Below are positions 388 to 29,467 of a stretch of DNA of 29,467 nucleotides, piece after piece. The notes beneath the pieces are model-generated. The model saw only the letters and a list, made by a program, of their open reading frames with translations, made no database searches and was not told the origin of the DNA. A program made the translations under genes and the position numbers. This DNA is from Pantoea sp. CCBC3-3-1 (GTDB taxonomy: Bacteria > Pseudomonadota > Gammaproteobacteria > Enterobacterales > Enterobacteriaceae), in contig NZ_CP034365.1 of the NCBI RefSeq assembly GCF_007981265.1, positions 1 to 29,467 of the forward strand. Reading direction: 5' to 3'. Within the stretch, counting starts at the first letter, position 1. Each line of letters begins with the position of its first letter.

Positions 388-435
388 ATGGAGGATTGAT
401 GAATAACTTTAAAAAAAAATCATGAAGCCTTTTTT

Positions 436-795
436 ATGCGTGTTTGCGCCTTTTTGGGTGATAACTGGCGGATTGATAAAAGAGATACGGCTTGCGATGA
501 CAGGATCGTCATGTTAAATCCTGAATTAAGAGGTTATCAGATTGTCGCTCGCCTTGAAAAAAATAGGTTTAGCTTAGTAGGGTTTTGCAGGCGGGGAAAC
601 GTAACCAGTAGCAGTAGCTGCTGCACCGCATCACCCAGGAGAACGCCTTTTGATTTGGCTGAGTTCATCAAGCGAAGATTGATTTGTACGGCAGAGAAAC
701 AGTGTGATGAAATCTTAGCAACTGTAGAAAAGGCTGCATCTGATAAACAAGAAAGACTATTGCTATTGCATTTATTGTCTAAACCGTGGATGTAA
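436..795 (+). CDS. Hypothetical leading-region protein, probably starting at 399
   Basis: Unrecognised 119-residue protein (MRVCAFLGDNWRID...) with a Ser/Cys-rich stretch (SSSSCC) near the middle and a Lys/Glu-rich C-terminus. The ATG at 436 has no ribosome site. A strong GGAGG at 390-394 precedes an ATG at 399 (MNNFKK) whose frame stops at 425 after a run of nine A (411-419). Removing one A fuses the two into a protein of about 131 residues (MNNFKKNHEAFF, then MRVCAF). The true gene is therefore probably 399-795, with either an indel error or A-run slippage. It lies in the leading region, downstream of the J-gene terminator. No function can be given. Confidence 0.55.
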   Translation: MRVCAFLGDNWRIDKRDTACDDRIVMLNPELRGYQIVARLEKNRFSLVGFCRRGNVTSSSSCCTASPRRTPFDLAEFIKRRLICTAEKQCDEILATVEKAASDKQERLLLLHLLSKPWM

Positions 796-878
796 CGCCT
801 TACCAAAGCTATTACAACGTTATTTGCGGCATTAAGGCAAAAAAATTAACAGCAGACATAAAGGAACGGAGTAAAGGT

Positions 879-956
879 ATGTATGAGCTTAAAATAAATG
901 ATCTATCATTTGAGCAAATACTTAGGCTTGCAGGTTTATTAGCCACTTTTGATTAA
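879..956 (+). CDS. Possible 25-residue small protein
   Basis: A short open frame (MYELKINDLSFEQILRLAGL, then LATFD) follows a purine-rich GGAGTAAAGG at 868-877. It ends just before the inverted repeat at 963-989. The composition is amphipathic with no motif. Support is only the ribosome site and the tight position between neighbours, so it may be a leader peptide or not a gene. Confidence 0.35.
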   Translation: MYELKINDLSFEQILRLAGLLATFD

Positions 957-18668: not shown

Positions 18669-19445
18669 ATGAATGAGTCTGAAAAAAAACGTTTCAATGA
18701 CCGGGTTTGTGTAGGTCAGGTTCGTATCAGCGCAGACGTTTATATCACTTCTGGCATGTCAGAAAGTGCGGCAGAGGTCGAAATAAAAGTTCCTAATGAA
18801 GATTATCAAAAAGAACTGGAGTTATATGAACGTATTTGCGATTTTGCTTTACTTCACGGAGAGGATTTACAAGGATTATTTCAGACGCGAAGTTATTACT
18901 ATATGTCGTGTTTCATCCGAAACACTGACGCATTTAAGCAGGTGTTTGGAGAGTATGACGCTTTAAAACCTTTATTCAATCACGCTAAAGGCGATGCGGC
19001 TGAGTTTCTTATTAGCTTTCCAGAGAGAAGCAATTATGAAGCTCAGGAACCAGTTAAAGACGCTTTTCTAAAGCTGATAAAAAACCATGTTAAAACGCTT
19101 GACGAAATTACATGGCATAGTTTTGAAAACAGAGCATTAACAGGCGAAACAGAGGGAGGGGGAATCGACTTAATTACAAAAGAGAGTTTTGATTTTGAGG
19201 ACGAGCGCGACAAGATTACAACCTTATCTCGTGAAGATTTTGTCCAGTATACATTATCTTCTGCTTTTGAAGTTGATTACTATACCACCCCTTTGTTCAA
19301 AGGTGCCGAGGCTATCGGTGAGATTGATGGCTTTCGGGTATTCTATAATTCCAGGGGGTTTTACTTTTACTGGAATGAAGACACTGAATTTCTTCTTGAA
19401 AGTTGGCTGACCTATCCGTCTTATCCATACGGCTGGCTATCCTGA
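18669..19445 (+). CDS. Hypothetical protein, 258 residues
   Basis: Acidic, soluble protein (MNESEKKRFNDRVCVGQVRI...) with no recognised domain. RBS is GGGAG at 18657-18661. Visible features are a beta-rich N-terminus (RVCVGQVRISADVYITSG), aromatic clusters (SYYYMSCF), and a C-terminus rich in Phe, Tyr and Trp (IDGFRVFYNSRGFYFYWNED, LTYPSYPYGW). Two further unknown genes follow before topB. The signal-less sequence suggests a cytoplasmic protein. Function unknown. Confidence 0.75.
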   Translation: MNESEKKRFNDRVCVGQVRISADVYITSGMSESAAEVEIKVPNEDYQKELELYERICDFALLHGEDLQGLFQTRSYYYMSCFIRNTDAFKQVFGEYDALKPLFNHAKGDAAEFLISFPERSNYEAQEPVKDAFLKLIKNHVKTLDEITWHSFENRALTGETEGGGIDLITKESFDFEDERDKITTLSREDFVQYTLSSAFEVDYYTTPLFKGAEAIGEIDGFRVFYNSRGFYFYWNEDTEFLLESWLTYPSYPYGWLS

Positions 19446-19536
19446 AAATCTGACGCGCTACGCTTGTCCAACCCTTCATCCGAAAAAAATAAATTTTTTC
19501 GTCTTCACGGTTTTGAAATTTAAATAGCAGGTTTTT
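19446..19536. other. Gap with A/T hairpin CGAAAAAA/TTTTTTCG
   Basis: CGAAAAAA (19481-19488) and TTTTTTCG (19494-19501) can pair around a short A/T loop, which may act as a weak bidirectional terminator. The next gene begins at 19537. Confidence 0.4.
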
Positions 19537-19782
19537 ATGAGAAATGGTTTTGTCAGCGATGAACAATATCAGCACTCATTGGCTGTTTTTAAAGAGCTTC
19601 TCGATGCCGATGTTTATGAAAGCGGTAATAAAAAAATTATCGATAAGTTCGAATCGGCTTTAGATATATGTCTGGCTTATGAAAGTCAATGCTTTAGTCA
19701 GGATTTACATAAGTCTCTCATAAGTTCTTATTCAGTCTTGCAACCCAAGCGGGCTGCTTATCCGATTATATCCATATACTGA
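19537..19782 (+). CDS. Hypothetical protein, 81 residues
   Basis: MRNGFVSDEQYQHSLAVFKE... reads as a mostly helical, acidic protein (ADVYESGNKKIIDKFESALD) with a C-terminus of Ser/Tyr and Pro (SSYSVLQPKRAAYPI). The ribosome site is only AGCAGG, ten bases upstream. No family recognised. Weakly supported by position between two unknown genes with similar bias. Confidence 0.55.
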   Translation: MRNGFVSDEQYQHSLAVFKELLDADVYESGNKKIIDKFESALDICLAYESQCFSQDLHKSLISSYSVLQPKRAAYPIISIY

Positions 19783-19797
19783 AAAGTAAGGTCTTGT

Positions 19798-20496
19798 ATG
19801 AGTTCATATATTGAAGCAGTCAAAGTAATTTACTCATTAGTTAAAGAAGCTAAGGGTGCTGATGAAAAAAAACTACAAAAAGCAGAAGGCATTATTAAAC
19901 GAATTGATGGTTTGGCTGAAGAGGCATATCTTCTGATCGCTGAAGCATATCAGACAACTAATAATGCAGATTTAGAGCTTGAAGATAACATTCATTCTCA
20001 ATTTGTTTTTATTAACAATTTTGATGATTATGAAGATGAAGAAACAGAAAAAGAAGAAAATAGACAAAAGGAAGCACTAAAAATGAGCCGTTTAGATCCT
20101 TCTGGTTTTACTGAAACTAATAAAGATCTACACGTTTGCGCAGGAAAGATAGTGAAAAGGGCTAAAGATATATTTAAGGCAGAGCCTGTAATGGCTCATG
20201 TATGGTCTTATCGCTGGGGTGGGTACAATATGATTTCATGTGACCTTTCCTCACTAGACCAAAAGATAAGTATGCCTATAACTATATCTGCTGTTGAAAG
20301 GCAAATGCTTGAATATTTCGACGAGCCGGATGTTTTTGATATGGCTGAAGCACTTCACATCGTCGGTATAGTAACTCAGGCGCTTGATGCAAAAATTAAA
20401 ATTGGCTTAGGCCGCAATGAGGTTAATCCTGCCGTGTTGAGTTCCCCTCTTAAAGAAGGGGAAACAAATGGAAAGATTTATCTTTGGAAAAATTAG
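19798..20496 (+). CDS. Hypothetical acidic protein, 232 residues
   Basis: Starts MSSYIEAVKVIYSLVKEAKG; the N-terminal third is helical, then a strongly acidic stretch (DDYEDEETEKEENRQKEAL), then a mixed domain with MAHVWSYRWGGYNMISCDLS and DMAEALHIVGIVTQALDAKI. RBS AAGG at 19787-19790. No family recognised; it precedes topB by 30 bases and may be co-transcribed. Function unknown. Confidence 0.7.
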   Translation: MSSYIEAVKVIYSLVKEAKGADEKKLQKAEGIIKRIDGLAEEAYLLIAEAYQTTNNADLELEDNIHSQFVFINNFDDYEDEETEKEENRQKEALKMSRLDPSGFTETNKDLHVCAGKIVKRAKDIFKAEPVMAHVWSYRWGGYNMISCDLSSLDQKISMPITISAVERQMLEYFDEPDVFDMAEALHIVGIVTQALDAKIKIGLGRNEVNPAVLSSPLKEGETNGKIYLWKN

Positions 20497-22851: not shown

Positions 22852-22862
22852 GGGTGTTAACT

Positions 22863-23312
22863 ATGAGTGATAATGAAAACTTTGAATCAGTTCGTAAGAT
22901 TCTTTCAAATATCCGGTCGGTACGTGTTTTTGCGCGTGATACTCAGTTTGAGCAACTTTTAGAGATGCAGGAAAAGCTCAATACTGCTATTGAAGAGCGC
23001 CGTGAAGAAGCTGAGCAGGAAGCCAAAGAGCGCGAAGAGCGTGAAAGAAAACGTCAGGAACTGCTTCAGTTAATTGCAGGAGAAGGTTTCTCCGCTGAAG
23101 AACTGCTAGGAGTTAGCGAGGACGCACCGAAGAAACGCAAAAACAAACTTCCGAAAGCACCTCCAAAATATCAGTTTGAAGAAGATGGTGAAGTTAAGTA
23201 TTGGTCTGGTCGCGGTCGTGCGCCTAAACCAATCGACACCGCTTTAAAAGCAGGTCAAAAGCTTGAGGACTTTCTTATCAAGAAAGACCATGCTGGCACA
23301 GAACAAGCGTAA
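22863..23312 (+). CDS. H-NS-like nucleoid protein
   Basis: 149 residues from the ATG at 22863 (AGGGTG upstream). The N-terminal oligomerisation region has SVRKILSNIRSVRVFARDTQ and a long charged coiled coil (about 35-70, EERREEAEQEAKEREERERK). The C-terminal DNA-binding domain holds YWSGRGRAPKPI (114-124), the family's AT-hook-like loop. Plasmid H-NS homologues silence A+T-rich genes and lower the fitness cost to the host. Starts shortly after topB and may share its transcript. Confidence 0.9.
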   Translation: MSDNENFESVRKILSNIRSVRVFARDTQFEQLLEMQEKLNTAIEERREEAEQEAKEREERERKRQELLQLIAGEGFSAEELLGVSEDAPKKRKNKLPKAPPKYQFEEDGEVKYWSGRGRAPKPIDTALKAGQKLEDFLIKKDHAGTEQA

Positions 23313-26423: not shown

Positions 26424-26452
26424 ATGCCCCGCCAATACGGGGCTATTTTATT
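26424..26452. terminator. Bidirectional terminator between convergent genes
   Basis: GCCCCG (26426-26431) and CGGGGC (26438-26443) with a 6-base loop, then TATTTTATTT. The reverse direction also runs into A-rich sequence, so it can serve the minus-strand gene ending at 26448 too. Confidence 0.85.
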
Positions 26453-26798
26453 TGTAAAGACAAACAATTCTTTCATCGATAAGTAAATCTTTCAGTTGTT
26501 CAATAACCACCCCATCAATCCCTGCGCATTTAAAAAAATCGACTCCTTCAAGTGTACCAAACCCGATAACCATTACTGGTTTACGCTCTAACAAATCATA
26601 AACTAAAAGTGGCGCGACAATACCATTAATCATTTCAAATGCTTTAAAAAACTCGTCAGAACCATACTCACTTGCAGGAAATACAATTTCACTTAATCTC
26701 ATTCCGTAAAAAACATGATATTTATCTTTTAAGTTTTCTGTTAAAATATTTAGTGCCTTCAGGTAATCATCATTTAAAATACTTTTTGTGATAAACAT
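26448..26798 (-). CDS. Hypothetical protein at the taxA position of oriT copy 2
   Basis: 116 residues (MFITKSILNDDYLKALNILT...). The pattern YHVFYGMRLSEIVFPASEYG, LLVYDLLERKPVMVIGFGTL and DFFKCAGIDGVVIEQL resembles a DUF2726-type nuclease-like fold, but the usual acidic residues are not obvious, so any nuclease activity is unlikely. It starts 11 bases from the end of the duplicated oriT, exactly where taxA starts at the other copy, with GAGGGA as ribosome site. Unrelated to TaxA in sequence. Confidence 0.65.
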   Translation of the reverse strand: MFITKSILNDDYLKALNILTENLKDKYHVFYGMRLSEIVFPASEYGSDEFFKAFEMINGIVAPLLVYDLLERKPVMVIGFGTLEGVDFFKCAGIDGVVIEQLKDLLIDERIVCLYK

Positions 26799-26809
26799 TT
26801 AAGATCCCT

Positions 26810-26901
26810 CAACAAGAACCGACTGTAGGTCACCGGGCAAACGTTGCTGAATGACGCTAGAGGCGTCATTTTGCGGCGTTTGCCCTATCCTGCATCGCAG
26901 T
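26810..26901. other. oriT: Second oriT copy, inverted
   Basis: The reverse complement of this block matches 2653-2745: 34 bases on the taxA side (26810-26843) are identical, and the nic side (ACTGCGATGCAGGATAGGG type) is also identical. The central hairpin is altered (GGGCAAACGTTGCTGAATGA against the perfect arm at copy 1), so it is imperfect. The nic TATCCTG (26886-26892) is here on the plus strand, with predicted cleavage between 26892 and 26893. R6K is known to carry two functional oriTs. Confidence 0.85.
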
Positions 26902-26973
26902 ACATAGATACTACATTCTCGACATTGGTTGCGCCACTGCTGGAAAAGTGCCGGAGAAGTACGGGATAAAGCT

Positions 26974-27426
26974 TTAAGTATTTGTTTCGCTACTCTGTTC
27001 TTGCCTTGTATCAGGCACAAGAAAACGATAGAAGGGCAGTTTTGCATTTAAATATTCGATGAGTGGCGCAGCTACCAGGCTCAAGACCCAAAAACCGACA
27101 ACCACCGGGATTGTGAAATTGTTGGCGCTCCAAATTTGATGATTATTTGTGAACCAGGTGACAACGCATATCAGGCCACCAATCCAGAATATCGCGCCGC
27201 TGAATGCCGAGATCACAGCTAACCCGCATACAGTAACGATATGGAAAATTGCAGCCAATGAGAGACGAAAGTAATACCAGCCAGCAGAAAGATAGCTCAA
27301 TGCTGATTTTTGCTTTGTTGCCTTGCTCCAGCCGTTCTTGGATAAACTTACCGCTCTATCCCACTGAATTTTTCGTTGCAGTCTGCGCCGTTCGGCTCCT
27401 TGCGGGAAGCTGTATATTTTAGCCAT
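26974..27426 (-). CDS. bis: Bis, accessory protein for the R6K beta origin
   Basis: 150 residues (MAKIYSFPQGAERRRLQRKI...), with a basic N-terminus and three hydrophobic segments (FRLSLAAIFHIVTVCGLAVI, IFWIGGLICVVTWF, IPVVVGFWVLSLVAAPLI). It follows pir by three bases and ribosome site AGAGGTG. Size, position behind pir and hydrophobic character agree with Bis of R6K, which is needed with pi for use of the beta origin. Identification is from memory of gene order and size. Confidence 0.75.
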   Translation of the reverse strand: MAKIYSFPQGAERRRLQRKIQWDRAVSLSKNGWSKATKQKSALSYLSAGWYYFRLSLAAIFHIVTVCGLAVISAFSGAIFWIGGLICVVTWFTNNHQIWSANNFTIPVVVGFWVLSLVAAPLIEYLNAKLPFYRFLVPDTRQEQSSETNT

Positions 27427-27429
27427 ACA

Positions 27430-27735
27430 TCACCTCTTGTTTTTTTTGGGTGGTAGGGTTTCATCAAATTCTTTAAGAAATGCAGCGTCAGCATCACTTA
27501 AACTCGATATAACCTCTTCATCACCAGAAAACTCTTCTTCATCAACTACAAATTCAAACTTTAGCTTACTTACCTTTCTTCCTTCTTTCTCATGGACAGT
27601 AAAGCCAACAAATGAGATCTCCGTTTTCTTTTTAATTTCCGCTATGGCCTTGTTTAACACGTCTCGCTTAAAAATAGGAAAATCAGGATACTTGTATTCT
27701 ATATTGCCATCCTTATCAAAAGATATGCAATTAAT
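27430..27735 (-). pseudogene. pir: C-terminal part of pi, out of frame with the start
   Basis: Open without interruption from 27735 to the stop at 27430. Reading DKDGNIEYKYPDFPIFKRDV, then LNKAIAEIKKKTEISFVGFT, it is the C-terminal third of R6K pi, including part of the second winged-helix domain and the acidic tail (EEEFSGDEEVISSLSDADAA). It has no start of its own except a GTG at 27660 inside the conserved region. It overlaps the N-terminal part by 37 bases in the -1 frame. Confidence 0.85.
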
Positions 27736-28337
27736 TCATCCTTTAACTCTTCAACTGAAATAACGAAAGAGTTTTTCTTCTTGAAATTAGAATAATGCTT
27801 CCTGATGAGTTGATAGAGAGATGATGAATATTGACTACTGAGACGTAAACTCGCAGTTAATAACTGAGTTGTAAATTTATTCTTTTTCCCAATGAGGCTT
27901 GAAATATATGGCTCAATAGTCCTAGTAAATTTTAATGACAAATATCCTTCATCACTCGAATAAGCGATCCATTCTGTAATATTGAGATCCAACTCTTCAG
28001 GGGAGTTTTTAGCAGTAAACGGAAGATTAAGTTCTTTAGCCAGAGCAATTATATCATCACCCCTTAGTGAAATTTTACTAGCGCCAAGCATTTTGCCGCC
28101 TTCTTTTAACTGTCGATAGGCAAGAGAAGGGGTTATTTTTGCAAGCGAGGCGAGATCTTCAGCCCTGATTTTGAACACTCGCCCCCGTTCGAGAGGTTCT
28201 TTGCTATCGATAGGAGCAAGCGCCATATACATCACTCGCTTTGCAGGCAAAGGAAGCTGAGCCAGAGTGTGATTTAACTCGTTCCGGTGGCGAATTTTCG
28301 TTTTTTTGTTCACGTCCATCATGACCTTGAGTCTCAT
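27699..28337 (-). CDS. pir: Pi replication initiator, truncated by frameshift
   Basis: 212 residues starting MRLKVMMDVNKKTKIRHRNE, near-identical to R6K pi as I remember it (305 residues). WH1 and the start of WH2 are intact (TQLLTASLRLSSQYSSSLYQ). At about residue 209, GCATAT-CTTTTG replaces an expected GCATAT-ACTTTTG, so AY is followed by LLIRMAI and stop instead of AYTFDKDGN. The missing base maps near 27722/27723. Pi needs WH2 for iteron binding, so the truncated product should not start replication. The ribosome site is TGAGG; expression is controlled by the half-iteron operator upstream. Confidence 0.88.
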   Translation of the reverse strand: MRLKVMMDVNKKTKIRHRNELNHTLAQLPLPAKRVMYMALAPIDSKEPLERGRVFKIRAEDLASLAKITPSLAYRQLKEGGKMLGASKISLRGDDIIALAKELNLPFTAKNSPEELDLNITEWIAYSSDEGYLSLKFTRTIEPYISSLIGKKNKFTTQLLTASLRLSSQYSSSLYQLIRKHYSNFKKKNSFVISVEELKDELIAYLLIRMAI

Positions 28338-28359: not shown

Positions 28360-28432
28360 TCTTAACGCCTCAAACATGAGAGTCAAATTTAATTACTCAT
28401 GTTTTAATGACGTACTATCCACTCATGTTTAA
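28360..28432 (-). promoter_or_regulatory. pir promoter with autoregulatory operator and lone iteron
   Basis: On the minus strand TTGACT (28388-28383) is followed after 17 bases by AAGATA. Inverted half-iterons (AAACATGAG and CTCATGTTT) flank the -35 in a head-to-head pair, the known operator for repression by pi dimers. Another single iteron-like copy (AAACATGAGTGGATAGTACG on the minus strand) lies at 28411-28430. The layout agrees with R6K. Confidence 0.8.
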
Positions 28433-28555
28433 GGGATGAACGGGCTTAAATATGCCCTCAAAGCCGCGCCACTCCTAGCAAGAGTGATTAAAAAGCCGCC
28501 TGTTTTAAACAAGATACGAAGATCTAAAGATCGACAGTTCAACCTGTTGATAGTA

Positions 28556-28687
28556 CGTACTAAGCTCTCATGTTTCACGTACTAAGCTCTCATGTTTCAC
28601 GTACTAAGCTCTCATGCCTAGCGTACTAAGCTCTCATGCCTAGCGTACTAAGTTCTCATGTTTCACGTACTAAGCTCTCATGTTTCG
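28556..28687. repeat. Six tandem 22-bp iterons (gamma origin)
   Basis: Six units begin CGTACTAAG at 28556, 28578, 28600, 28622, 28644 and 28666, each continuing CTCTCATG and ending TTTCA, CCTAG or TTTCG. Unit 5 has TTCTCATG. Exact 22-bp periodicity and the ACATGAGAGCTTAGTACG type (reverse) are those of R6K gamma, which carries seven. They bind pi monomers. GATCTAAAGATC lies just outside at 28521-28532. Confidence 0.93.
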
Positions 28688-29183: not shown

Positions 29184-29306
29184 AGCTTTACGCTGTAAAT
29201 ACGGTGTAAAGATACTTGATAAACCATCATATGATGGTATACTGTCTTTGTTGGTCGGGAGGGGTTCCCGGCCTCATTCCAGAAGCCCAAACGGGCGGGA
29301 GTAAAT
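29184..29306 (+). promoter_or_regulatory. Promoter with palindromic operator and conserved leader (copy B)
   Basis: AGCTTTACG (29184-29192) and TGTAAAGATA (29205-29214) are par-type boxes. TTGATA (29216-29221) and TATACT (29238-29243) have a 16-base spacer holding ACCATCA-TA-TGATGGT (29223-29238). The leader has GGGA/TCCC elements, ATTCCAGA, GCCC-AAAC-GGGC and GGGAG before the ATG at 29307. The same layout occurs at 1482-1572. Confidence 0.75.
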
Positions 29307-29467
29307 ATGAATATCCAAGAAGCATTAAATGTATTCGGCATTAAAGGCACTGACCTGTCAAAAGACGATCTCAAGAATGCGTATAAAAAATTAGCGCTTA
29401 AGTACCATCCAGACCGCAACCCGCTTGGTGTTGAACTTATGAAGGCAGTTAACGCAGCCTTTGACCT
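29307..29467 (+). CDS. J-domain (DnaJ-like) protein, N-terminal part
   Basis: 53 codons to the window edge (MNIQEALNVFGIKGTDLSKD...) with KNAYKKLALKYHPDRNP, containing the invariant HPD tripeptide that makes DnaK hydrolyse ATP. RBS GGGAG is in the conserved leader. The gene runs off the right edge; joining to the left edge (1-360) continues the same protein family, although with indels. Such small J proteins are common in conjugative plasmid leading regions, with unknown specific client. Confidence 0.85.
   Translation, partial: MNIQEALNVFGIKGTDLSKDDLKNAYKKLALKYHPDRNPLGVELMKAVNAAFD

Follow-up and report, generated by a model that had tools for sequence, protein, structure and literature searches.

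The gene for the replication initiator pi (pir) on a plasmid contig of Pantoea sp. CCBC3-3-1 lies in two reading frames in the deposited sequence, and this split is very probably an uncorrected consensus error in an assembly that behaves like one made from long reads. The window analysed is the whole of this contig (C3, 29,467 bp), one of four in the assembly, the others being C1 (5,008,525 bp), C2 (25,471 bp) and C4 (96,304 bp). C3 is an R6K-like plasmid of the IncX2 type and carries homologues of conjugation genes. When positions 5000-29467 were used as the query, five records had one place covering at least 80% of it, and four of these covered 91-92% at 84.4% DNA identity. Among the best 80 of 591 loci, the one nearest to the host GyrB came from Erwinia sp. 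198 (97% at the protein and 87% at the DNA level). No drug-resistance gene was recognised in the ORF list or, with NCBIfam, among ten of the less familiar ORFs, a search that was not exhaustive.

An initiator of the R6K pi type (Rep_3 family) is expected to be encoded by a single frame of about 305 aa. Such a frame is absent from the window, where pir consists of two frames on the reverse strand. The first (27699-28337) is an ORF of 212 aa plus a stop, the final 6 residues of which lie outside the pi frame; it contains the WH1 domain (PF01051, E 1.1e-21, 78.1 bits for a Pfam cut-off of 22.4). The WH2 domain is also present, but in the second frame (27430-27735; PF21205, E 2.8e-12, 47.1 bits, cut-off 21.1), which is open and overlaps the first by about 34 bases (27702-27735). 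The first-pass annotation had proposed a comparison with R6K pi. When this was made with PDB 2NRA, residues 1-206 were matched by the same residues of the first frame (E 4.5e-120) and residues 205-275 by the second frame (E 6.2e-39), and alignment with intact relatives revealed an offset of one base in register at the seam. The domain and 2NRA matches of both frames are far above chance. The claim of that annotation that pi is split over two frames was thus borne out by the ORFs, the Pfam domains, the 2NRA matches and the alignment with relatives. The break adjoins a run of four T and is located 1.7 kb inside the right-hand end of the contig.

At 80-90% DNA identity, the pi region matched 14 records of a plasmid collection and 6 of an E. 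coli collection, with one accession common to both. Frame continuity was checked in the 14 plasmid records: in all of them pi is one continuous frame of 305 aa, these genes representing only 2 distinct DNA sequences, and none carries the break seen in the window. The window gene shares about 84% DNA identity with known IncX2 pi genes. Compared with the IncX2 relative L003, the first part of pi displays 78.5 synonymous and 8.5 non-synonymous differences over 205 codons, and the second part 29 synonymous and 3 non-synonymous differences over its first 68 codons. As synonymous sites are near saturation (dS was 1.13 in the first part and not calculable in the second), these counts weigh more than the ratios. 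Both parts were thus under equal constraint in the past; had the break been old, the second part would have drifted, so the break is either very recent or not real. Searches for further relatives gave little: a scan of genome contigs with the N-terminal part of pi yielded nothing that was confirmed, and no relative was found in viral contigs with the exact seam pattern or the C-terminal part of pi. Among 392 genomes of the same family, the N-terminal part had 27 matches, including its own genome; the best of the others, 45% and 42% identical, were too distant for a comparison of frames and were not used.

The surroundings of pir are those of an R6K-type replicon. Six 22-bp iterons with a 22-base spacing, belonging to the gamma-type origin, lie upstream of the gene (28555-28686, forward strand, strict cores counted), and a lone iteron-like unit, 86% identical to some of the iterons, is found between them and pir (28410-28430, forward strand). 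Directly 3' of pir, a gene of 150 aa in one frame (26974-27426, reverse strand) occupies the place of bis in R6K. It is followed by a homologue of DNA distortion polypeptide 3, also in one frame and 51% identical to its counterpart in a relative (26448-26798, reverse strand). On the other side, a gene with a DnaJ domain runs on the forward strand across the joint of the contig: its portion ahead of the joint (29307-29467) is followed by a portion in two frames past it (1-357), where the gene is broken. Next to it, a hypothetical gene at about 400-953 (forward strand) is in more than one frame.

These two genes, which the first-pass annotation had not picked up, are, with pi, the only frame-broken ones in the backbone that was compared. 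This set comprised 29 of the 33 features annotated in L003, its four load genes (an IS5 transposase, an isochorismatase-family hydrolase, an EamA transporter and tet(A)) being left out. For 26 of the 29, which in the relative add up to about 17.9 kb of coding sequence, the encoded protein matches the window without a change of frame, and the three broken genes are those nearest to the contig ends. In nucleotide alignments, we counted five uncompensated frame changes in C3: two in the DnaJ-domain gene, two in the hypothetical gene and one in pi. Two additional changes in the DnaJ-domain gene cancel each other within about five codons, and small gaps in other genes do so within about ten codons. 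Three of the five uncompensated changes are beside runs of 5-6 A and one is beside AAA, the fifth being that in pi beside its four T. No break other than that in pi was found towards the right-hand end of C3, on which side 205 codons of pi and 53 codons of the DnaJ-domain gene are unbroken. The topoisomerase gene, located beyond the part of the window covered by L003, is intact (an ORF of 782 aa with topoisomerase domains).

Contigs C1, C2 and C4 served as controls. C2 (1-25471) is made up of three copies of about 8.49 kb arranged head to tail (8,484, 8,497 and 8,490 bp). They differ from each other by indels in 47 alignment columns (14, 27 and 6 in copies 1, 2 and 3) and by substitutions in 17, the latter all in copy 2. 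Twenty-six of the 47 indel columns fall in runs of at least 3 identical bases. In copy 1, 9 of the 14 indels lie less than 2 kb from the contig start (binomial P 0.0014, with the 2-kb cut picked after the positions were known). Small plasmids do form true multimers; we took the differences between copies as sequencing error, although a true multimer is also possible. The fact that the copies differ mostly by short indels indicates that the true plasmid is probably one circle.

C4 is related to NZ_CP145667, a plasmid of Citrobacter freundii that carries phage genes, 74 ORFs of which were matched in 90,000 of the 96,304 bases of C4: 71 in one frame and 3 split. Two of the three splits were discounted, being at the borders of the analysed stretches, and the remaining one is at the start of the contig. 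The first 1.3 kb of C4 contains three frame changes in two genes, though these may be explained by natural divergence, as the relative used is distant (46-72% amino acid identity in these genes). A baseplate gene that had been counted as being in one frame turned out, when the joint was inspected more closely, to be split. In the chromosome, 176 of 177 matched ORFs were in one frame over 57.7 kb, in five stretches compared with genomes of the same genus (five of eight 20-kb stretches fetched were used, one having been dropped for poor synteny); these 177 ORFs correspond to fewer than 177 genes, since as many as four relatives contributed at each place and antisense ORFs were counted too. The lone split ORF, at the end of a stretch, is antisense and has matches of just 29 and 13 residues. 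In a smaller run on the two ends of C1, 29 of 30 matched ORFs were of full length and the thirtieth was cut by the edge of the stretch; C1 starts with what by eye is an apparent dnaA, as does its relative G119, and its ends may therefore not be raw ends of assembly.

In what was tested, small-indel trouble was thus found in the plasmid contigs, where it was crowded at the ends, though not exclusively. Frame breaks near contig ends, as predicted by consensus error, were seen in C3, in copy 1 of C2 and in C4; in copy 2 of C2, however, the indel cluster is internal, away from the contig end, and proximity to an end cannot by itself account for it. The clustering of breaks at the ends of plasmid contigs and their rarity in the five chromosomal stretches support sequencing error well. 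The first-pass annotation had given a single-base deletion as a fact in its title, which is not sustained. The circle would have been opened near the origin when written as a linear contig, and small length errors, including the one in pir at a distance of 1.7 kb from the right-hand end, would have stayed in the sequence flanking the cut. We infer, as we do for the sequencing method itself, that pir is uninterrupted in the cell and that the reads would display a continuous frame; pi is very probably continuous in vivo and would initiate at the iterons in the usual way. Apart from this probable artefact, C3 is an ordinary IncX2 replicon with some divergence. PMC4699355 and PMC10326302 deal with the low quality of contig ends, with small circles assembled as tandem copies and with indels left in the consensus. 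The Plassembler paper (PMC10326302) describes that assembly from long reads frequently yields a small plasmid two or three times over, and that errors of this kind are hard to tell from true multimers. Both the tripled C2 and the joint of C3 fit such errors of long-read assembly.

The first-pass annotation had left four options side by side (a sequencing error, dependence on frameshifting, dependence on a helper, or an inability to replicate) and chosen none. The clustered breaks speak for the first. A rival reading is a real and very recent mutation of pir: the plasmids of the sequenced culture, in part or throughout, would be without full-length pi, the mutant copies being diluted out or being maintained by intact ones that share their cells. 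We regard this as unlikely, but it has to be considered because the pi break is alone near the right-hand end, 1.7 kb inside the contig, and is devoid of the A-run context that is typical of most of the other breaks; a very recent event would also be consistent with the equal conservation of the two parts of pi. It would nonetheless leave the broken neighbouring genes and the indels of C2 and C4 in need of a separate cause, and it is established for R6K-type replicons that a plasmid should not persist once functional pi is missing.

That full-length pi is made from the two frames by programmed or leaky frameshifting is extremely improbable. The overlap of about 34 bases is such that a shift within it would give the complete protein, but no X_XXY_YYZ heptamer is present in the whole of the first frame, the longest run in the overlap is of four bases, and the two-frame arrangement is found in none of the 14 relatives, all of which are continuous. 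Nor did we find a start for a restart in the second frame, the first 25 codons of which contain no ATG, GTG or TTG, its first codon being the rare start ATT. We give equally little credence to replication of C3 in trans by another initiator. The earlier statement that no other initiator is visible holds for the plasmid, and a search of the genome for Rep3_N added, besides the window gene, only one Rep3-family initiator, encoded by C4, and no other pi. This C4 initiator could in principle serve as such a helper, but it is distant (28.1 bits to Rep3_N, and no match to the N-terminal part of pi at E 0.001), and the genome contains neither a second C-terminal part of pi nor a second copy of the iteron region. 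Finally, it is very doubtful that the two-frame pir is real and lived with, either through a rare, non-canonical frameshift giving a little full-length pi or because a pi reduced to WH1 suffices at this origin. According to PMC4980987, DNA is contacted by both WH1 and WH2 of R6K pi, so that a protein with WH1 alone should be impaired. If the plasmid did live with a two-frame pir and a WH1-only pi, the requirements for an iteron initiator would have to be reconsidered and, more generally, a real break would cast doubt on whether pi needs WH2.

Leaving the consensus error as the preferred reading, the replicon may be compared with known systems. Like R6K pi (pir, IncX2, Rep_3 family, PDB 2NRA, NZ_LT827129), the window gene has WH1 and WH2 parts and the same neighbours; unlike it, it is in two frames, and it has the divergence from known IncX2 pi genes noted above. 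Six strict iteron cores are present upstream of pir, as in each of the three relatives in which they were counted, while seven iterons are stated for R6K in PMC4980987. With the artefacts described in PMC4699355 and PMC10326302, C3 and C2 share length changes near the ends of plasmid contigs and a tripled small plasmid; the pi site differs from them by its position inside the contig and by the lack of an adjoining A-run. A striking defect in an essential plasmid gene thus loses biological weight when the remaining contigs from that assembly act as controls. The check is reusable on deposited plasmids, by comparing the copies within a tandem contig and by mapping breaks against distance from contig ends.

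Some other features of C3 were observed. Two adjacent ORFs in 18669-20496 (258 and 232 aa) had no Pfam, NCBIfam or PADLOC match, and an H-NS-like gene (22854-23312) adjoins the plasmid topoisomerase gene. A direct repeat of 89 bases (1489-1577 and 29223-29311, 79% alike) covers the starts of two different genes and the sequence just upstream of them, as if both had a common leader or promoter. An inverted pair of about 95 bases (2650-2745 and 26810-26904, 89% alike), each member of which is beside a DNA distortion polypeptide gene, is reminiscent of the two transfer origins described for R6K.
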